DNA of 64,000 nucleotides, taken from assembly GCA_949710005.1 (NCBI GenBank), contig OX453274.1, positions 38,226,214 through 38,290,213 on the forward strand, given 5' to 3'. A program made the position numbers and the translations under genes. Positions 761 to 51,624 of the stretch are shown here, piece by piece (within the stretch, counting starts at the first letter, position 1; each line of letters starts with the position of its first letter). The stretch is from Ricordea florida. Taxonomy: Eukaryota > Cnidaria > Anthozoa > Corallimorpharia > Ricordeidae. The notes under the pieces were generated by a model. It worked only from the letters and a program-made list of their open reading frames with translations. It was not told where the DNA came from and did not search any database.

Positions 761-34761
<34,001 letters not shown>

Positions 34762-37059: not shown

Positions 37060-37320
37060 AATATTAATCATTGATGTAATGACATTAATTGATCATCACA
37101 GTTATGCACACAACTTAAGCAGCTGTGAAATTAAAGCCTGAAAAAAAAGCTCAGGCCTGAACGGGATTCGAACCCATGACCTCTGCGACACCGGAGCAGT
37201 GCTCTACCAACTGAGCTATCAAGCCATCTGCGAGCTGGTCATATTGTGAGTTCGTACGTAATATACCCGTAGATGGAGAAGAATGATTCATATGAATATA
37301 TGAGACCATATATTTGAACT
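37060..37320 (-). repeat. tRNA-derived SINE, minus-strand copy
   Basis: Same family as 31090-31300, with the head on the minus strand (GCTTGATAGCTCAGTTGG read from about 37223 downward) and the body ending near 37060. Arranged head to head with the next copy. Confidence 0.85.
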
Positions 37321-37369: not shown

Positions 37370-37620
37370 CATCATTCTTCTCCATCTACGGGTATATTAC
37401 GAACTCACAATATGACCAGCTCCCAGTTGGCTTGATAGCTCAGTTGGTAGAGCACTGCTCCGGTATCGCAGAGGTCATGGGTTCAAATCCCGTTCAGGCC
37501 TGAGCTTTTTTTTCAGGCTTTAATTTCACAGCTGCTTAAGTTGTGTGCATAACTGTGATGATCAATTAATGTCATTACATCAGTATTAATCCGCAGTTCA
37601 AATGTATGGTCTTTCATATA
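37370..37620 (+). repeat. tRNA-derived SINE, plus-strand copy
   Basis: Upstream flank CATCTACGGGTATATTACGA, tRNA-like head from 37428 (GCTTGATAGCTCAGTTGG ... GGTTCAAATCCC), then the common body. Mirrors the 37060-37320 copy around 37345. Confidence 0.85.
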
Positions 37621-37659: not shown

Positions 37660-37990
37660 GAACTGACAATATTTCAGGCTTTAAAATTCACAGCTGCTTA
37701 AGTTGTGTACATAACTGCGATGATCATTTAATGTTATTACATATTAATCCGCAGTTCAAATATATGGTCTTTCATATATTCATTTGCATCATTCTTCTTC
37801 ATCTACGGGTATATAACGAACTCACAATATGACCAGCTCCCAGTTGGCTTGATAGCTCAGTTGGTAGAGCACCGCTCCGGTTTCGCAGAGGTCATGGGTT
37901 CGAATCCCGTTCAGGCCTGAGTTTTTTTTTCAGGCTTTAAAATTCACAGCTGCTTAAGTTGTGTACATAACTGCGATGATCATTTAATGT
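37660..37990 (+). repeat. Partial plus full tRNA-derived SINE copies in tandem
   Basis: A headless body (37675-37800) is followed by a complete unit with a head from about 37849. Both share CACAGCTGCTTAAGTTGTG and GCGATGATCATTTAATG. This gives a small array of four related units over 0.9 kb between CASK and U2AF1. Confidence 0.82.
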
Positions 37991-38607: not shown

Positions 38608-41600
38608 CTAATGCCGCCCTCGCCTGTTGTCTCGGTCACGTGGCGATCTCTCACGGCGAGGTGAACGCGACCTGTCCCTACGGGGTGGGGGTGACCTGGA
38701 TCGGCGGCGCGGAGGAGATCTGGATCGAGAACGACGTGTGTATGGAGGCGATGCCGAACGAGACCTGTGAAAATATGGGAATGAAGTTATGGACAGTATG
38801 CATCAACATTGCAGTTCAAATCCCTACCACTGGAACTCGTAACAGAGTTCAAAATTCGCTAATTAGTCATCTTAAAGGGACGTTTTACAGGTTTAGAAAT
38901 GTACAATCAGCTAGCATAAAAAGGATGACCTTTCTCAGAGAATATTTGTGCTTATAAGGGAAAATCTAGACAATGAGGTCAATAAATACCTCTTATTAAT
39001 CGAGTTCGAGGTCCGTACTGTAAAATACGGACCGAGTTTTTTCCCGTCGATTCGCGCTTGGGCCATAAATCGACGGGAAAAACTCGGTCCGTATTTTACA
39101 GTACGGACCTCGAACTCGATTAATAAGAGGTATGTATTTTCACGGGAGTCTCAGCTCTGTAGCATTAGCAGTTGATGTTAACACCAAATCATCATCTAGG
39201 CAGTGATCGCTTTGCGATGGTTGCAGCTGTACGCTGTACATTGCGAGCGCTTTTGTAATGGTCTGCGATTTTTCTAAAAGACAGGCTGTGGTAACATGCT
39301 CCAACCAGCTCGATTAGCTTTGCTAAATTTGGGTGGAAAAAACTTTTTCATTGTAACTCGTATGTCATTAACGTTGCTGCTGTTGTTGTTTGTTGAAGAC
39401 TTAAGGTAGATGTTGGTATAACACCAGTCGATTGTCCTCCTCCTTTAACAGTAATGGGAGGCTACAAGGCAAAACCTCAAGGTTTACTACTGGAACAGAA
39501 CGCTACTCGGCCATATTACCGTGGAGGTGATTCTTTTGCACCGGCGCCTGCACCCGCCCCTCTAAAATAAACAGAAAGTATCTCATATGCATTAATGCAC
39601 CTATCAATGTGAAGGGACTGTTCGCTATTTATGGCTAGGGGGGTGGTGTTTAGAGTGGGGGAGGGGGTGTAAAATTTTCAAAACCAAGGGAAATGGGAGT
39701 GATTTCGAATACAGTAGAATCGAGGGGGTTAACGTTTTTGCCGTTTTCCAGATATATTAAATGGAGCTTTGTTTTGGGCCAGTGGCATAAACTGAGGGGG
39801 ATTTTTTTTTTGGGGGGGGGGGGTGGTGGTGGTGATTTTAAGATACATGCACTTTCGGGAAGGGGTACATTTTTAATCTGCCTTTGTTAAAAATCACCGA
39901 GCACCCTAAGCCATAAATAACGAACAGTCCCTAATCTGGAGGGAAGGGGCCCATCTGGGGAATTTGACCAAAGAAAGCGGCCCGTGGTGTGAACCTGTTT
40001 ATATTACAGAAAGCATTATTAAAGACTATTATTGAAATAAACGAGGGGAGTGGTCGCCCAATCTCCCGGGCCAGGGGGTCATGAAAGAAACGCTCGACAT
40101 CTATAAATTACAACTGCATCTACAACGGCCTGACCACAACACTGGGTTCTACATCTCGTATTCTTCGCGTCCAATAAAATTACACTATTAAAATATTAGA
40201 ACGTTATTTCTGTCAATGAGACACAGTTGACCACGGTCCTTAGTTGGGCGTGGCAACGCTCCAAGCTGCGACTGTTTTGGTTGCCATGACGACTAGAAAA
40301 AAATTGGCGCCCAAAACTGTCAGAAAACTCGTCAATTTTGGCGACCTTCCTGGCCATTTGATTTGTTTTGATATCCAAAAATAATAACAATTTACGACCA
40401 CAAAACCGCTCAGTTCTTCTTTCGTCATTTACGGTTCTTTAAAGACTTAATAAAAACACATCATTTTTCGCCAAGCTATCCTGGGTAGGGAATAAGTTTG
40501 ACCAATTAACCAACTTACCTTCTCCTCCGCCTATTTCGTCCATACAGTTCCCTTCTGTATCAGGAGAAACATGACATGTATTTGTTACAAGTGGCTATTG
40601 ATGGATTCTGACTATATTTACTAAGCTAATATTTAAGTTATCTCAGCTGAAGTATCAAGGCTTCAAGCCTGGTTTTCACTACGACACAAGCATAACGATT
40701 AGCAGAAAACAAAGGAGAACACAAAGGAATGAAATCAAGCGTACGACATAAGACCAAGACATTGACATAAGACCAAGCTATAAGCAAAGTAAGGACAAAG
40801 AAAGAAACAAACAAAGAAGAACACCGTCCTTTTCCCTTGTAAAGCTTCACAGGAAACATTTTTCTTTGTTTTTATTTGCTTATGCTTGCGGCATATGAAA
40901 CCCAGGCTTTAGCCTTTAACCTCTGAGATCAGAGCAGTAATTCTCCTTAGTTGGTGCCATACACAGGTTCAGTACACATTTAAAACAAGTTCCAACTCTT
41001 GTATTGCAACAGTTACTGTTCAAACAACTGTCCTGAGGGTAGCTTCAATCACAGAGACAGAGCAGTTTTGACCTCTGAACTTTATTTTCTCAAAAGAAAA
41101 CAAATGTTAACCTACACGGAAAATGTTAGTCTGCGATTGCTGTTTCTCTGCATTTTTCTAGCATGTTAAACATGATGGGGATGGACGTGAACTGTTCTAA
41201 ATCCCAGGAATACAAGGAGATATAAAAATATGCTGTACCAAGAAACCTGAGATAGCAAGGACAGAACTTCAATACTCTGCTACTTGACTGTATACTTTCA
41301 GCAACTTTAAATTTAACCAGTTTTGTATAACACAAGGGGCATGTATACAATAATAATAAGATAACACTAATTGGCACCTAACCAGTTTGCCCCATTTAAT
41401 ACACTACTCAGTGTTCTTGCCAGTTTCACACTTCAGTACGTTCAGAATTTTTTTGTGACCACACAATAATTGTGCATAATTAGTAAGTACTAATTAAAAC
41501 TTCGACTCGAGTGTGCACTGAAAGGGATATAGTGTAAATTAAGTTCTGTAAATGTGTGTGTAAGTTCCCACAGATGTAAAATAATGAACAATTTTGGTTC

Positions 41601-44600
41601 CTTCTCCAGGTACCGGCACAGATGACGTAGCACCTTGTTTCATTGACGTAGCACATTGTGTGTAAATTATTCAGTGACATGTTTTATTGTCTAGCCTTGT
41701 TTTAGTCATCTGTGCCAGTACCTGGAGAAAGAACCACAATTTTTCTTTTTTCTTGTTCTGCCTTCTCCATTTCCTGACCCGATGATTGTTGATACCTGTC
41801 ATCACTCTGGATGCAGACTTTCTTATACAGCCTATTCATTCACAAAATCAGCAGCCAAGTTTATGACGGAAACAAAAGAATATGTTTGCATATGAATAGA
41901 ATTTAATTCCTGAGGGATTAGTTTGGGACATCAACATGGCCACCTTTTCTTTCTTTGGGGACATCAACATGGCTGCCATGATGTCATGTACATACGCTCT
42001 ATATTTAGTTTTTACATTCACACACAATAACATTTTCTTAAACAAAATGATAGGAAATCTAGTTTGAAACCTTTGTGGCAGTGACAGTTACTAAGCAATT
42101 ATAAATTGTCAAGAATAAATTTTATAACTTCATTTTAAAATTTTCACTATCAACATTAATTAGCCTGTAAATGGTAATAAAGGCCTTTCTATCCTCGTGC
42201 ACATTCATTAGATTGTTTTATAATCAATCTGATTCTGCCATCACCTGTCCACAACTTATGCTCAGTCCTACATGTGGGCTATCAACTGTATGATTTCAAA
42301 CAACCTACATCTGAACATACTAATATTACACTTCTATTGTATTATTATAGTTATAAAAAACGAGCAGAATTATTATTGATATTGCTCAACACTGACACTG
42401 TTAATGAAGACATTTATATAGCAAAATATCAATAACTTGGTATAATAAATGTTTGAAGTCAGTATAATTAATACTTTAAAAAGGATATTTATTTATTGCA
42501 ACATTTGGTTTTTATTGATATTCTACTTTATGGTTATGATCTTCAAACCTGACCAGAATATCAACAGAGTACTCTAAATGGCCACACTGTTGGGGATGCA
42601 AATGTAGACATAATGAAATCTTTTTATTAGTAGCAGGTGTTTTGGACTTGCAAGAACATGGTACAGTATGATTTATATTTTAATGTTACACCCACTGATT
42701 TTACTTTGTTTTTATGGTTGTGATTTTAAAAACCAACCAGACTATCAATATTTACTAAGCATTCTGAGTGGCCATACTGCTAGGTGTGTGAATGTGGGAC
42801 ATGTATAATATATAACTAGTGTATATTTCCTGTTATTGGCAAGTTGTGTTTTGTACTGGCAAGAACACCGGTCAGCACTTCATCACACATGTGCTACCTG
42901 ACACTCACCGCAATTCTCTTGAAATGGGCCGCATATGCATGAAGTTACAAAACCCACCACGTGAACACTCTCTAGGAATATACAAGAAGACTATGTTTCA
43001 AATTAATTTTGATGAGTTCAGGCGCGCTTACCGGCTGTCCCGAGAGATAGGTCTCAGATGCATGAAGTTACAAAACCCTCCTCTTGTGCATTCACTGCAT
43101 AACAGAGGGGATCAGAAAGTCAGAAGCTATAGGGGGAAGCTTAAAAATTCAGTCTATAGTTCCAAAACCATAGAATATCCTAACTCTTGCAATTAACACT
43201 TAACCTTGTCCAGTAATTCTAGACTGAAGCACAAATAACATTTCAAAAGTGTCAACTCTACACTATCTTGATATGCTCAAAAGCTCCGACTTGTAAAACA
43301 AATTTAGAAGGATAAAAGCTTGACATTTGCCGCAATGAAGTGTACAAACAACACTTTCCACATGTAATATAATAATTTTTACAAGAACAGTTGACTATTG
43401 ACACTCTATAATGAAGCTCATATGAGAGCTCCTGTTTTAACTTTAATTTTTTTATATATATTCCAAAACTACAAGAACAGTCAATGGTATACACATTGGT
43501 CATAAATGTAAGACGTCTCACCTTCCAATGCTACTTTTTCGAAATATAACCCACTTAAGTTCACAAAAATATGCACAGAATTAAAGGGAAGATTTTAAAG
43601 AAATAGGCAAGACCAAAACATAATTCTCTTTTCTAATATCACTATTTCTGACCATGTCACCATGTCGATTTTGATGTTACAATACGATAATTCCTTTGAT
43701 TTGTGTCCAGATTAAAGGAGGGGTTTTCATATCATGATTTCAATATACCGGTAGTTTTTATGAATTCAGAGCATGGGATAAAGTGCTGTGTCAAGGGATT
43801 CTAAGCTCATGCTTGATGCTATTGACTTTCTAAGGATCACTTATGGAAGTAAGAAGTGTTGGTGGTACATGCATTAACTGTGTGGATCTCCATTCGCTCC
43901 GACGAAGGGCTAACGCTCGAAACGTCAGCACCTCCCTTTTACCTTACGGTGGTATAACTTACTTAATCAACTTGTTTGATTTATCCAGTTTCTTGTGTCT
44001 CCATATACCGTATTTACTCGTGTATAAGTCGACCTTTTATGACCAAAAAATCATCCCAAAAAATCACCCCCGACTTATACACGAGTCATACACAAAGACC
44101 TGACCAAGCAATCCAATAAATTAGCATAACAATTGCCCTAAGTCCATTACGAAAACCGAGTTAACAAAACCAGTTCTAATTGTGCTTGAGTATTATCAGT
44201 TTTCGGCACATTTTTCGTCAACAAAAAAGTCTGAAATTCTAAATGTTAAGTGGTTTAAATGCAGACCTACTGGTGATGAATTCTATTGTGTCTTTTGATC
44301 TGTAGATCAGACATTTTTCTTAAAGCTTCGCTGGTGTTTACAGTGCTGAACTTTCGTTTTCATCGAACGATTACAGTAGCTTAGTGACCTGGCAAATGCT
44401 GTTGCTCGTGTGGTCTTGTTGTAAATCGAAGTGTTCGTTTGTGCTTAAATCGTGATGATATAAACAAGTCCAAATACCTTCACAGCTCACGATTACCATG
44501 TTTTCAGTATATTCTTAGGAAGAAAAGATTAACTTTTTTGGGAAATTTCTAATGGACTGAATTTCACTACTGTAACCAGAAACAATGAAAAATCCGATTT

Positions 44601-44868
44601 TTGACCTTGAGAATGGGGGGTCGACTTATACACGAGTTCGACTTATACACGAGTAAATACGGTAGCTGTTTTTAGTATCACCCAACTAGTGGACTAACGC
44701 AAATGCTGCAATCTGATTGGCTACGCTACTAGAGGACTATTAGTAATAGTCCTCAAGTAGCGAAATTTGTGACTCTTTCTTTCGTCTTATTCCCAAATAA
44801 ATATTTCTTGGACTGGCATTTGCTGACTTTATTAATGCCGTTTCTGTCTGACTAGTTGATTGATACTA

Positions 44869-44902
<34 letters not shown>

Positions 44903-47900
44903 GTAAATAGCCCATTTGGCTGCCCTCATAGGATATTAGCCCTTCGCCCTTGTGGGCTACAGGTCTAACTGTCAAGTAGAACACCAGAAAACTCTGGTGT
45001 ATACATCCACTTACCCCATTTCATACTGCCTGCAACATGCCTCTCTGAAAGGTAAAAATAACTAAATTACCTTCTTCCTCTGGAAGAACATTGTTTGGGC
45101 ATTTATTTCAACTGAACTACGGCAGCCTACTGTCAAGTAGATACAGTACAAGTTGCATCTCAGACTAACATATATTGTAAGGTTTTGCTTCCCCCTAGCC
45201 ACAGACCTAGCATTTTTTCACTTAAAATTATGACTGCTTTTACAGCACAATGAACTCAACCTGAGCCACAAACAGTTTGAAACTTAAAGCAACAGTTTTT
45301 GTTTTTGATCAGCTAATGAACTACTGAAGTCAGACTTCTATGTTGTAACTGGTTTTTGATTGGCTAACAAACTATCAAAGTCAGACGCCTTTGTTGTAGA
45401 TTTGACCTTTGATTGGCTGATTGATGTTGAATGGCCCAGGTTAAGTTTGTTGAACTGTGAAAGCGTTTTATCTCATAACTCTTATTGTTGGAATGACAAA
45501 TGGAATCAAGTAGATCAAGATAACTGGTTTAATGTTTAACTATAATTTAGCATAGGAGACCAATCTTGGGAAGTGCTTTGTTAAGTTTACTCACCTAAAA
45601 TCTGTCACTGGTGACAGCTCTGCATAGATTGGCTGCCCTGAGAAAGAACAGCAAAGAGGAGCTTCACATAATGCATGTGGGTAGGGCTGATCAACACAGC
45701 AATAAAGGGGAAAAATCAGGCAACAAACAACATACAGTAAAACTTCTGCATTTCAAGAACAGAGAAGTAAAACTAAACATGCGATTTGAAGCACTATACA
45801 GTACCGCTCAAAGGTAAGTTGACAGTCACTCGCGAGTTGCGAAACTCGACTCGAGACTCGATCCTCGATCCTCGAAAATTTCGAGAATTGAGTCTTGAGT
45901 CGAGTTTGCCGACTCGCAAGTTAAGTCTTTCGAGTTTCGAGTCGAGAAAAATAATGAGCTTGCTGGAATAACTTAATTAACTGAATGAAAAGCGTTCGTT
46001 GATGCCATGGGGATAAAGCGTACTGATTTTAAAGTGTCAAGTGTTCTTTAGAATGGTTAGGGAGATTAAAACGCTGTGCGACCGGTTTGGATGTGTCTTA
46101 GTCATCTTTCTCAACGCCGGTATCCAGTCAGTTCACTCCATGGTCAGATCGTTCCAAAATAAAAGTCAGATCGTTCCACAAAAAGTAGTACGGTAGTTTT
46201 GCTACAAAGTCATTTCGCTGCAAGTCGTATCAATATATCATTCCAAGGCACGGCAAAATTTACAAATGTATCAAGGAGAAGCACGTTTCGTTTACTGACT
46301 GAGAACAAATTCGGGTAAAGAAATCTTCGAGTAAAAATTCAGCAATTCCGAATCTTAAAAAGACTCTACTAAAACACTTGCACCTCATTTATTGTTTGTT
46401 GATGCAAAAGCTTACAAGTGGGGAGCAATTTTCCATTACGCCGTCATGAAATCAAAACACTCACGAATTTTGCATACGCGTTATAGTTAATTACGATTTG
46501 TTGTTTGAAATAAAGTGAGGCTGTTTTCAACATCAGTTGTTGTTTTGGAGAATAATTGTCTTGTAAGGTTGTGTCGTATTAGAGGTTGTAAAGGCCGTGA
46601 GTTGCGTTACGCGAATATTAAACAATTCGACTTTGGCTTAATTGACGCATGCAGATTTGTGCACGTGAAAATGCACGCGCTAGTTAGGCGGTTGATTTTC
46701 GCTTCTTGAACGACTTGTTCAACTTCTTGAGATAAATAAATGGTGGCCCATTTGTGGTATTTCATGCATACATATATTATGGACATGCACATGAAAAAAC
46801 AACATGCGAATAAAGATTCTCATATCGGTCGTGTTTCGAATGGAGTTCGGCTAAATAATAATTACTATATCGTCCGCGGGGTCCTTTCTTCCAAGTTTAT
46901 ACGACAAGTCTTGTTTCCTTGTTGAATACAATACAAGCAAAAGTAATTGTGAGATGATAATTCGTATTTCATAAGACAGAGTAACTCGTGACGTCTCAAT
47001 TCTGTAAGATATTCAAGGTATTATTTTTTCTCGTCGCGAACCAAGACACCATACTATAACTTTGAGTGGACATCAACAAGTACAAACAACTGAATACTTG
47101 CGTGCGAATGGTTATTGTTCTTTCTTCGAGAGATTAATCACCAATTAGAATTTATGAATATTCCAGATATCTCGATTCTCGATACTCGATTCTCGATTCT
47201 CGCGTCTCGAAACTCGAACGTCTCAACCTTCGCGACGCAAGAATCGAGTTTCGAGGATCGAGTCGAGACTGTCAACTTACCTTTGAGCGGTACTGTAGCA
47301 GCATGCCTACATGTATGTAATGGCTCATGGTCACATATCTATGATGCTATTCAAAGTTAGATTATAACAAAGCCAGTGCTCAAAACTACCTTTTAGAAAT
47401 GGTTTTCCTGCGACAAGTAGTACAAAATTTTTGGTGGTCCTGGAAAAAATCTAACTGGCCCCTTTGAACTTTGCTCTGTTCCTTTTCGATAGCCAAGCAA
47501 AGAAAAGCAGTGGCAAGCGGCCACAACTGTTGCTTATTTTAATACTGGTCATATTTTCCTGCCATGGCTGCTATCTATTGCTCATGCTACAACGAGTTTA
47601 CTCACACCAGTGTCTCTCTATTTTCAAAATGGACTCAAGGACAAAGGTAAAAAGAAGCAACATCCATCTCATCATTCTATGCTACAAAGTCTGAAAACCA
47701 AGCCCAAGCCACTGTGATGAGTCAAGAGCTGTATGTGCTACAGCACCACTCATGCTCCCTCCAAAGGCAACAGCCACCCCAACTGTGCGCAACACTGATA
47801 GAGTGTTGCATTACTTACCATTGTACCAGCGGTTATCAAGGTCCTTCACAGCCTTCTCTGCATCTTCTTCATAACGAAATTTGACATACACATTTCCAAC

Positions 47901-50900
47901 AAGATGGTCTCCAAGGTTATCACATACATTCATTTCTTCAATTTCACCATACTGAAAATTACAAAGCTTGGCATTAAATTCAAATCATTTTACAGTGCTT
48001 AACCCTTAGATTTCACTCCATATGCCCAAAATAAAAACAACAAAATACAAAGACACTGACCTTTTCCTCAAGTTCCAGAAAAACATCCTACCAAAAAAAA
48101 ATAATAATAATAATAAAATGACATTTCTGCTCGTTTCAAAAATTTTATTTTTTGTAGTACTTTCATTGAGACTACAAATTATCAGAGGATACTGTATTTA
48201 CCTCAAAGAATCGATCATAGTGTTCCTGAGCTTCCACATCTGAAATGGCACTACCTGCAATAAAGACAAGGAAAAGTTAGAAATAACAAGATTGATAAGT
48301 TAACTTTATATATGTTTCCACATCCACTAGTACATTCAATTTTTTGAAAGTATTAAAATACATATATAAAGTTTTCATACCTTAAATGTCCGAAAGCATA
48401 ACCAAACCTATAATTTTTCATTTAGATCCATTCACTTCGTGAAAATGAAAAAAATAAGCTGGTTGTAATACATTTCAGATTTGTCACTTCTGTAAAAAGA
48501 TCTCCCTCAATGAAAACAGAAATGTAGTCTTTCAGGGTAACTGATAAAAGATTAATACTTGTAACATTAAGTTTTCAGAGAATGTTGATTTCCCTGGTTA
48601 TGCATGCACAAGTGATTGGACAGTTCTTCCCAATGTTTTAAGCCTATGCCATGTAAAATTAACATCAACATCAACATCATCATCATCATCATTATTATTA
48701 TTATTATTATTAACTGATAACAAGCAAAACGTTCTCTATCACTCACTTGTTCCATCAGCAACTTGAGCTGCACTCTGTGGATTCTGATACATGTTCTGTA
48801 GCAAAATGGTCTGAAAATCAAGAGGCAAGGTTTGCATTTAGTCCATGTATGGTTATACTGCTGTCATAAATGATAATTGCTCAGAGAAAAGGTCATAGAG
48901 ATTTCATTTGTATTTTCATTTAATTAATCCGCATCAACAGGTTAAGTTGCAATGTACAAGAAACAAGGAAGAGATGAAAAGGGTATGATATGGTAGACTA
49001 ATTATAATTATGCCTTTTTTAAAAAAAAATATTACATTTTTGGTTACGATAGAAAAAGGAATCTTGCTATAAATAAAGGAAATGAGAGACAGAAAGGAAA
49101 AGAAGGCTTTACAAAGGTCAAGTAGCAGGGATTGACACTAAGTAAAATAATACTGGAAGAGATTTAATGATAAACCACTATGTTCATAAACATACACTTG
49201 TACAATGTAAGTAGTGCGTCAAGAAACTGCTCTACATGGACATGTTTTAATCTGGCTACTGCTCTTTGCTGCCACTTTATCGTGTACTTAGCTGACACTA
49301 CTGTGCCTCCAATTAACTTATACGTGCAACTGATATTTTTTTGCTAAAACCAGTGCTGTCAATAAGACCCGGCTCCCGCTGGAGCTCTGGTGAGGGGTCT
49401 CTTCCAAATTGGCTGCTATATTTCTTGCATAAATGTGCTTATAAACAAATAATTTAAATGAACTATTGAACCAGTTTTAAACAAAAAATCTAATAACAGT
49501 AACACTGACATCATATCTTTGATTCTAGGTATAATGTGTTTTTTTTCTTTCAAGTTACTGCATTGAGAGTTGTAAATGCACCAACAAAAACCTTTTTTAT
49601 TATTATCATTATCATTATTATAATTTCTCAGGTTTTTATTATTTTGCTAAAAGGACACAAATACACCAAAAGTGCCTTATATACAAGATACAGACTACTA
49701 ACCTGACTGAAGGTTGGTCTATTGTGTAGCCGAGAGCAACGGTCTCCATGACGGCAGGCTCCGATTTTAAAGTAGAAAGAACAGTTTACCCTGTAAATAA
49801 TGAGAAGCACGTTTTAAAGCATCTTCAACAGTAATCTAGTAAGGAAGGAACTATGGAAATAACAAAAGCAGAAATCAATTTAAGGTAACCATGCACATCA
49901 TTGGTACAGGCAATGCTTGGCCTAAAGCTACAGCAGAGGAAAAGAGAAATACTGTATTTATGTGTGTATAATATGCACTTTTTTCCCCAAAATTCATATT
50001 CAAAATTGTGGTGCGTATTATACATAAATCCTATTGTTTTCCTGTAAATACATGTAAAGCTGCAAATCTGCTTGGAAAAAACATCTTTAATGCTTCAAAC
50101 GTCTCTACTTAGTAACCTGGTAGTTTAACTTGACAACAAGGGCATTTGTTTATCAAGTTGTTTTCAGAGTCTTGACTTTCTTTGCTGTTTTGTTTGTCTT
50201 ATAAAGCCACTTTTTATCTACTCACACTTAAGGTTTGCTTGAATTCATCATGTTTGATTTTGTAAGCATAATTTTTACAAAAATTTTGGTTAAAATGACC
50301 ACATACACACGTGTTGCTAAACCAGATAAAACGCCCATTTATGTGCAATAATATGAAACTTATCACAGATCCATAGTAGCTGAAAGAAACTTGTAGGAAG
50401 CACAAGATAAGTTTTACAAGAAATTCTTATATGCTGGATCAACTTCACAGGTAAATACAGTAGGTTTTTTATGGAAACTCCTGTGCAGAAATAACTTTTT
50501 TTGGTAATGTAATATGGATTTACCAAACTTTGAATTCTTGATACTTCAGTTTTCAGAGAATTAATCTTTAGTTGTTGCAGTGAATTTTTCTCTTATTTAC
50601 TTAATTGTTTTTGAAAAGCATGCTCAAAAATTAGGGTGCGTACTAGGGTGCGCATAAATACTGTAGGTTTATGCCCAGGTGTCTACAAACCGAAGACCCA
50701 AAGACAAAGAACCCCGTTTAAATGCTTTGACAAGCCTTTAAAAGACATTTATCAGTTGCTTTATGGGGTGCAGAAATACTCGTTATTGATAGGGTCTTGT
50801 TTTGTAGTTTGACCAGGGTCAAACTACAAAACAAAGACTCCCCCAAAACTCTATGGCAGGCCTTTAAAATACACATTATCACTCACTACGACTTATAGGG

Positions 50901-51624
50901 CACTGAAATACACGTAATTGTTAGGGTGTTTGTTTTGTAGAAAAAGCTGGCTCAAACTACAAAATGAAGACCCTATCAATAACAGGTATTTCAGCGCCCC
51001 ATAAAGCGTAGCGACTGATAATATGTATTCTAAAGGCCTTTCAAAGCGTTTTAGCGGGGGTCTTCGTTTTTGGGTATTCGGTCTTTGGTTCGCAGATTTT
51101 CTACCGTTCTGGCAAACTTCCATAGCGCCGACTGTAATCGACTCTTCTCGAACCTAAAATTTCCTAGAGTCTCCGAGGAAGATAATTCTTTCGCCTTATT
51201 ACCTTAACACCACGAGGAAGTAACAAAGGTAAACGTGAATTCACTCATGGAACTCTTAGATTTTTCTAAGTAACAGGTCGATGTAACCATGAATTTAGCA
51301 CTCAATAAAATGAAAATAATTCGAACAAACATAATTAATTGTAACCTTTTATAGTTTGAAAATCACAGTGGTAGTTAAAGAATTGCTGTTGCATAGAGCG
51401 CGTTTTAATGAACAATTTAGCGATCGCTCAAGTTCAGAAGATAGCACTCGGTTGGTCACAACGGCGCGTTTGACCTCACTAAAAGCTCGCAACCTCTCAA
51501 CGGTACATCACATTCGTCAACGCTTCACGCTTACTTTTGAAGCTAATTTGCTAGCGTACAAAAGGTATAATGGCCCTTACTTATCTTTCTCTGTTCCAAA
51601 GATGGACGCCAAATACTCCGCCAT
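38608..51624 (-). CDS. U2AF1: U2AF1 (U2AF35), small subunit of the U2 auxiliary splicing factor, complete
   Basis: Recognises the AG of 3' splice sites as a heterodimer with U2AF65. Exons in transcript order: 51581-51624, 49703-49790, 48747-48810, 48202-48254, 48061-48087, 47819-47951, 45595-45637, 45015-45044, then either 43032-43094 or 42909-42971, 40519-40554, 38608-38764. With one of the two 63-nt exons the CDS is 738 nt (245 residues; human 240), and every junction is in phase with GT-AG. Residues: [15 protein letters not shown] start; zinc finger 1 with Cys18, Cys27, Cys33, His37 and conserved Ser34; UHM domain ([19 protein letters not shown]); zinc finger 2 with Cys155, Cys163, Cys169, His173; C-terminal RS tail ending at TAG 38608-38610. 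Numbering matches human through zinc finger 2. Introns hold a Tc1/mariner-like element, two other TIR elements and hairpins. Confidence 0.96.
38987..39132. repeat. Long near-perfect hairpin (65-bp arms)
   Basis: Arms 38987-39051 and 39069-39132 are reverse complements apart from one T/A-run length difference; the spacer is 17 nt. Arms begin TACCTCTTATTAATCGAGTT and contain a nested GGTCCGTA...TACGGACC pair. U2AF1 intron 10. Confidence 0.97.
39613..39932. mobile_element. MITE with about 30-bp terminal inverted repeats
   Basis: Left end AGGGACTGTTCGCTATTTAT; the complement of the right end reads AGGGACTGTTCGTTATTTAT. The interior is G-rich (G runs near 39800-39830) and non-coding. U2AF1 intron 10. 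Confidence 0.85.
41595..41742. repeat. Inverted-repeat hairpin element
   Basis: Arms TGGTTCCTTCTCCAGGTACC and (complement) TGGTTCTTTCTCCAGGTACT, about 32 bp each, continuing GGCACAGATGAC. U2AF1 intron 9. Confidence 0.85.
42909..42971 (-). CDS. U2AF1: U2AF1 alternative exon 9b (zinc finger 2, downstream copy)
   Basis: A second 63-nt exon with acceptor ATTCCTAG and donor GTGAGT. It encodes [12 protein letters not shown] followed by MRPISRELR, agreeing with human at Glu180-Leu181 but not at Thr164 or Leu174. The 60-nt intron separating it from 9a (42972-43031) is very short for an animal intron, so joining both copies should be sterically disfavoured. If both were included the frame would stay open. 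The copies differ at 13 codons, nine of them synonymous, while a central 21-nt block is identical. Confidence 0.88.
43032..43094 (-). CDS. U2AF1: U2AF1 alternative exon 9a (zinc finger 2, upstream copy)
   Basis: A 63-nt exon flanked by a good acceptor (TTATGCAG) and donor (GTAAGC). It completes Gly161 and encodes [12 protein letters not shown] followed by LRPISRDSR, supplying Cys163, Cys169 and His173 of CCCH finger 2. It agrees with human U2AF1 at Thr164 and Leu174 but has Asp-Ser where human has Glu-Leu (180-181). Its length and entry/exit phases match those of the copy 60 bp downstream. Confidence 0.88.
43840..44004 (+). mobile_element. Probable Penelope-like element terminal fragment with hammerhead-like motif
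   Basis: Contains GACGAAGGGCTAACGCTCGA then AACGTCAGC (43901-43929), a sequence I associate with ends of Penelope-like elements, some of which carry hammerhead ribozymes. A helix GGGC-TAAC-GCTC followed by GAAA fits helix II and part of the core, but the CUGANGA box reads CCGACGA with an extra A. Followed by TTACGGTGGT. Likely degenerate. Confidence 0.35.
44006..44664. mobile_element. pogo-like non-autonomous TIR element
   Basis: Ends TACCGTATTTACTCGTGTAT (left) and the complement TACCGTATTTACTCGTGTAT (right). Both ends also repeat a GTATAAGTCGAC block, in the same design as 7265-8094. No transposase domain. U2AF1 intron 8. Confidence 0.8.
45797..47297. mobile_element. Tc1/mariner-like non-autonomous element with 27-bp TIRs and TA target duplication
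   Basis: Exact inverted ends starting CAGTACCGCTCAAAGGTAAG (45799) and ending with its complement at 47295, flanked by TA on both sides. Both subterminal regions (45825-45950 and 47165-47265) are dense arrays of ACTCGA/CTCGAT motifs in mirrored orientation. The interior has no recognisable transposase. U2AF1 intron 6. Confidence 0.9.
48660..48715. repeat. Microsatellite (ATC)n/(ATT)n
   Basis: CATCAACATCAACATCATCA followed by ATTATTATTATT, about 30 bp downstream (transcription sense) of U2AF1 exon 3. Confidence 0.9.
49950..50665. mobile_element. TIR element related in design to the pogo-like ones
   Basis: The left end TACTGTATTTATGTGTGTAT and the complement of the right end TACAGTATTTATGCGCACCC form imperfect inverted ends, with GTGCGTATTATAC and GGGTGCGTACTAGGGTGCGC internal blocks. 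No ORF of note. U2AF1 intron 1. Confidence 0.6.
50685..51100. repeat. Large imperfect inverted repeat
   Basis: The left half (AACCGAAGACCCAAAGAC ... AAGCCTTTAAAAGACA ... TTATTGATAGGGTCTTGTTT) is mirrored by the right half (AGACCCTATCAATAACAGG ... TCTAAAGGCCTTTCAAAGCG ... GGTCTTTGGTTCGCAGA). A further internal palindrome GTTTGACCAGGGTCAAAC sits near 50825. U2AF1 intron 1. Confidence 0.75.

Follow-up and report, generated by a model that had tools for sequence, protein, structure and literature searches.

Alternative exons in the U2AF1 family and in OGDH

In mouse, the ZF2-coding exon of U2AF26 (U2AF1L4) is alternatively spliced. This case is similar to the one described here in that alternative splicing affects the ZF2 region of a U2AF1-family member, although it consists of exon skipping and not of a choice between exons. 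In vertebrate U2AF1, exons Ab and 3 measure 67 nt and code for a portion of the UHM, and transcripts that include both or lack both undergo decay (PMC5224494); the mouse U2AF1a and U2AF1b isoforms show different 3' splice-site preferences (PMC6821156). The locus of Ricordea florida analysed here shares with this vertebrate system the gene itself, a tandem of homologous exons of equal length, and predicted isoforms only a few residues apart (PMC5224494, PMC6821156). Unlike those UHM exons of 67 nt, whose joint use or loss ends in decay, the exons found here are of 63 nt, encode part of ZF2 and remain in frame in every combination. The sequence-only reading had already set the exons found here apart from the vertebrate ones, placed at residues about 46-67, and this contrast holds, the vertebrate exons encoding part of the UHM (PMC5224494). 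Exon E3 had one match in the protein search, and it is the ZF2 exon that is duplicated here, not the Ab/3-type UHM exon.

Regarding the mechanism, the closest described system is that of OGDH exons 4a and 4b, whose branch points, 25–41 nt from the 5' splice site and thus below the threshold near 50 nt cited for U1/U2 assembly, enforce exclusivity (PMC7969005). The two spacers are alike in having branch points, mapped in OGDH (PMC7969005) and only predicted here, at no more than about 50 nt from the 5' splice site that precedes them. OGDH is an unrelated gene. With respect to previous descriptions, U2AF1 is not mentioned in the main text of a survey of human tandem exon events (PMC9741552), and no duplicated ZF2 exon of U2AF1 nor cnidarian U2AF1 isoforms were recognised by title or abstract start among the open-access matches listed, which does not imply their absence from print. 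Both forms may already be present among the gene models of corals.

The U2AF1 gene of the window

The window (the whole stretch of 64,000 nt that was analysed) carries on its minus strand a single intact U2AF1 gene, made of 12 coding exons with either copy of the duplicated one. When these twelve exons were joined, a protein of 259 residues was read from ATG to TAG, both with exon A and with exon B, with its domains in the order ZF1, UHM, ZF2, and RS tail. The features of the gene are as follows:

51581..51624, minus strand: U2AF1 exon E1, with the start codon
49703..49790, minus strand: U2AF1 exon E2, ZF1
48747..48810, minus strand: U2AF1 exon E3, 64 nt, at the position of vertebrate exons Ab/3 (PMC5224494)
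48202..48254, minus strand: U2AF1 exon E4
48061..48087, minus strand: U2AF1 exon E5, 27 nt
47819..47951, minus strand: U2AF1 exon E6, UHM/RRM
45595..45637, minus strand: U2AF1 exon E7
45015..45044, minus strand: constant exon E8, with the first Cys of ZF2 (C155) and Gln157, which would join A or B
43032..43094, minus strand: U2AF1 exon A, residues 162-182
42972..43031, minus strand: spacer intron, 60 nt, GT-AG, with a short pyrimidine stretch
42909..42971, minus strand: U2AF1 exon B, residues 162-182
40519..40554, minus strand: constant exon E10, with the next acceptor beyond A or B
39520..39561, minus strand: U2AF1 exon E11, Gly-Ala linker
38608..38764, minus strand: U2AF1 exon E12, RS domain and stop codon

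The identity of the gene, proposed earlier from its sequence, was confirmed by this ZF1-UHM-ZF2-RS architecture, with the zf-CCCH and RRM domains exceeding their Pfam cut-offs and the RS tail encoded by E12, and by the search against solved structures, in which S. pombe U2AF23 was the best PDB match and the nearest full-length solved relative (E 2.1e-69, with a query lacking one serine). In addition, human numbering fits the predicted protein, with Ser34 and Gln157, the hot-spots of human U2AF1 (PMC7505975), in place.

Several repeats were observed within the introns of the gene. The intron between E6 and E7 contains an element of ~1.5 kb (45797-47297), likely a non-autonomous DNA transposon, whose terminal inverted repeats, of 31 bp, are perfect and whose sub-terminal repeats are rich in TCGA. 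A MITE-like element (44006-44664), with 30-bp inverted arms 97% complementary and 599 nt apart, lies in the intron between E8 and A, about 0.9 kb upstream of exon A, and a foldback with 64-nt arms, also 97% complementary, was found in the last intron (38981-39138). Elsewhere in the window, an open frame of 1177 residues on the minus strand (15943-19476) looks by eye like a LINE-type endonuclease/reverse transcriptase, and four tRNA-Thr (GGT) genes appear on both strands within about 7 kb (31121-31193, 37153-37225, 37429-37501, and 37846-37918), these four tRNAs being the only Rfam matches at the gathering threshold within the window. Finally, a large family of fluorescent-protein exons was detected in the genome, with 71 matches to PF01353, 64 of them on contig C11, 3 on C4, and 4 on C15, in agreement with an anthozoan origin.

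Two tandem copies of the ZF2 exon

Exons A and B are homologous, lie adjacent to each other between E8 and E10 of the same gene, and have equal phase and a length of 63 nt each. Both are bounded by canonical splice sites (TATGCAG/TGA...CCG/GTAAGC for A and TTCCTAG/AGA...GCG/GTGAGT for B, with slashes at the exon borders). Forty-four of their 63 bases are common and 19 differ, resulting in four residue differences (T164S, L174M, D180E, and S181L). Either exon completes the ZF2 finger, with all the zinc ligands intact and no stops, and the zf-CCCH profile scored 52.9 and 52.6 bits for the two forms (whole protein, both fingers; cut-off 20.5), with its best stretch in ZF2. The frame is kept in all four combinations (A, B, both, or neither).

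The description given in the sequence-only reading was reproduced, including coordinates, lengths, splice sites and phase of the two exons and the 60-nt spacer, the junction positions of E8 (45015) and E10 (40554), the four residue changes, the identity of a central 21-nt block, and the preservation of the frame upon double inclusion. The nine synonymous codon changes that it counted were also found inside the exons, a number that becomes ten if the split Gly161 codon is included. An open frame of 126 codons on the plus strand (42816-43196), antisense to exons A and B, was also observed, which is probably due to chance.

With a probability that we estimate at roughly 70%, the ancestral ZF2 exon of U2AF1 would have been duplicated in tandem long ago in this anthozoan lineage, with both copies kept as alternatives.

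Spacer intron and choice between exons A and B

The spacer between the two exons is shorter than any of the other 11 introns of U2AF1, which range from 109 to 2354 nt, the latter being the intron from B to E10. It is also shorter than all the 67 intron estimates sampled in the same genome (27 from myosin heads and 40 from kinesins). These were obtained by pairing only neighbouring exon matches whose profile positions were nearly contiguous and whose gaps were below 12 kb, drawn from 81 rows for myosin (out of 227 candidates, 65 were scored) and 124 rows for kinesin (out of 212, 122 were scored). At the sequence level, the three shortest kinesin estimates corresponded to introns of 80, 80, and 98 nt, and none of the 67 was below 80 nt after this reading, which covered 3 of the 67. 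The raw figures of the two 80-nt introns had been 62 and 74 nt, which puts the error of such estimates at up to about 18 nt. Left out of the sample were six kinesin rows and one myosin row exceeding the profile span by 33–477 nt, which may hide introns or insertions; in three of them, with an excess of 33–42 nt, the figure was estimated from the profile span only.

A yUnAy count placed the candidate branch points of the spacer at distances of 28, 33, and 18 nt from the 5' splice site. Such crowding of the 5' splice site of A would disfavour the joining of A to B, since the branch points would be too near for joint U1 and U2 assembly, while the splicing of E8 to B would still be served by the spacer branch point. 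In this way, E8 would be joined either to A or to B, and each of them then to E10. The comparison with other introns of the genome is a weak one, because the score is a simple yUnAy count that produces ties, and an intron of 60 nt forces short distances anyway. In fact, the top candidates of two 80-nt kinesin introns, at 53 and 50 nt, tie with one at 38 nt and with others at 46 and 36 nt, respectively, so ordinary introns may also have distances below 50 nt.

Mutually exclusive use of A and B is the likeliest reading, and its enforcement by the short spacer, as proposed in the sequence-only reading, is plausible. Rather unlikely, in our view, is that A and B act as independent cassettes used non-exclusively, with some transcripts including both (280 aa) or neither, a possibility favoured by the preservation of the frame in the four combinations, by the GT-AG ends and short pyrimidine stretch of the spacer, and by those two 80-nt introns of a kinesin gene of the same genome, with some of their branch-point candidates below 50 nt. 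Moreover, a human intron of 56 nt is spliced with SPF45 (PMC8363638), so a length of 60 nt represents no absolute bar. Nevertheless, double inclusion would repeat half a CCCH finger and double skipping would lose three zinc ligands, both being likely harmful in a core factor, and every intron sampled in this genome is longer than the spacer. Exclusive use of the two exons thus appears likely, but it may be leaky, and any leaky joint use could not be removed by decay, as every combination is in frame.

Two further mechanisms of exclusion were considered. Decay as the enforcer was ruled out, because the frame survives double inclusion as well as double skipping; if the spacer is retained, on the contrary, a TAA follows immediately after exon A. 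On the other hand, no support was found for a competing RNA structure, either by folding 261 nt (z 0.45, a stability equalled or exceeded by 136 of 200 shuffles) or with the 21-nt block as sole selector, as 41 of 60 shuffled blocks pair at least as well as the block with the rest of the gene.

Age of the duplication and selection on both copies

By the Nei-Gojobori method, 14.7 synonymous sites carry 12 differences between A and B and 51.3 nonsynonymous sites carry 7, corresponding to a pS of 0.82, with synonymous sites saturated, versus a pN of 0.14. When the 19 differences were simulated under neutrality in six settings of 20,000 runs each, no run gave four or fewer residue changes; the means were 11.4–11.9 residue changes, and 43–56% of the runs were free of stops. 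No similarity beyond that of shuffled sequence was detected among the 300-nt flanking introns and the spacer. These results indicate that the tandem duplication is old and selectively maintained, having been subject to protein-level constraint for at least most of its history. The earlier proposal that selection had retained both proteins is supported, as purifying selection on the pair, by the difference between pS and pN and by neutral runs never giving so few residue changes.

These same data bear on whether just one of the exons is a working copy, the other being an unused or minor leftover, which we find quite improbable. The presence of Leu181 in B, as in S. pombe, where A has Ser, would fit such a leftover, but a dead copy at this distance would be expected to carry about 11–12 residue changes (with 43–56% of runs stop-free), against the four observed, without stops, on a background of saturated synonymous divergence, and all the zinc ligands are intact, as are the splice sites of the two exons.

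Finally, an assembly artefact, an allelic copy or a paralogue is scarcely credible, with 19 of 63 bases differing, unrelated flanks, and one gene in a 538-Mb assembly of 48 contigs, to which the window belongs. A 601-bp region had one match in this assembly, and the protein search, carried out up to E=10, returned 12 matches, seven at the U2AF1 locus and five elsewhere with E values of 1.36 or worse, with no second copy or retrocopy of U2AF1 among them. Thus, the paralogue or artefact that the sequence-only reading had named as what could explain the second exon did not appear, with a single locus and no collapsed duplicate found in the assembly. A search for relatives in prokaryotic and viral contigs gave 58 and 7 pattern matches, respectively, none of them confirmed, and this has no bearing on animals.

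The unchanged 21-nt block

The central block that is identical in both exons occupies the following positions:

43058..43078, minus strand: 21-nt block GGGTTTTGTAACTTCATGCAT, exon A copy, identical to the exon B copy
42935..42955, minus strand: 21-nt block GGGTTTTGTAACTTCATGCAT, exon B copy, identical to the exon A copy

Among the codons that keep their residue and could change silently, none of the six inside the block has changed, compared with 10/10 outside it (hypergeometric P 1.2e-4, leaving aside the split Arg182 codon; with Arg182, 10/11 outside, P about 6e-4). In addition, when the 19 differences were shuffled along the exon, an identical run of the length of the block had a P of 0.0016. 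The identity of the block seems therefore anomalous, and either a short gene-conversion tract or a constraint at the RNA level could be sufficient to produce it.

RNA contacts and isoform function

In the S. pombe structure, the ZF2 contacts named are C149, R150, R159, C163, N164, and F165, with main-chain contacts by R145, E146, and C148 (PMC7505975). According to the alignment, R159, C163, N164, and F165 correspond to human-numbered residues 165, 169, 170, and 171, identical in A and B, whereas the other yeast-contact positions map to the constant exon E8, the codon of R145 being split between E7 and E8, both constant. The variable residues 164, 174, 180, and 181 are absent from the ZF2 contacts named for yeast (PMC7505975).

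The sequence-only reading had suggested that the switch could tune AG-context preference. With the named ZF2 contacts unchanged between A and B, the direct form of this proposal becomes less likely. An indirect effect may still exist, given that the vertebrate U2AF1a and U2AF1b isoforms differ in the UHM and not in the fingers, and yet differ in site preference (PMC5224494, PMC6821156). If site choice is affected at all, it would be through second-shell residues or via partner proteins. The output of the locus would consist of two U2AF1 isoforms of 259 aa with the same known RNA-contact residues, differing beside the zinc ligands (164 and 174) and in the post-finger segment (180 and 181), and the likeliest effect, by analogy with U2AF1a/b, would be a modest shift in finger packing or partner contacts, affecting the use of some 3' splice sites.

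The acceptors of the two exons differ at -3 and +1 (CAG/T in A and TAG/A in B), the positions read by U2AF1 (PMC7505975). This difference allows for a self-regulating switch, although it is only a lead, as unrelated acceptors often differ there by chance. We consider it improbable that each ZF2 isoform recognises its own subset of 3' splice sites and that the two thereby regulate the choice between A and B, with the frozen 21-nt block as a shared regulatory element, the whole having evolved independently of the vertebrate switch. If this were true, U2AF1, a core splicing factor, could hold a switch in which the ratio between the isoforms adjusts itself.

Significance

Even if the second form were not expressed, the locus would still offer a clear example of an exon that was duplicated long ago and maintained by selection, with an unusually short intron between the copies. 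If both isoforms are made, a tandem-exon switch would have been gained twice independently in one general splicing factor, affecting one domain in vertebrates and another in an anthozoan. In that case, it could be tested if splicing is reprogrammed by small changes next to an AG-binding finger that itself stays the same, and if switches of this kind accompany stress, symbiosis or development in corals.
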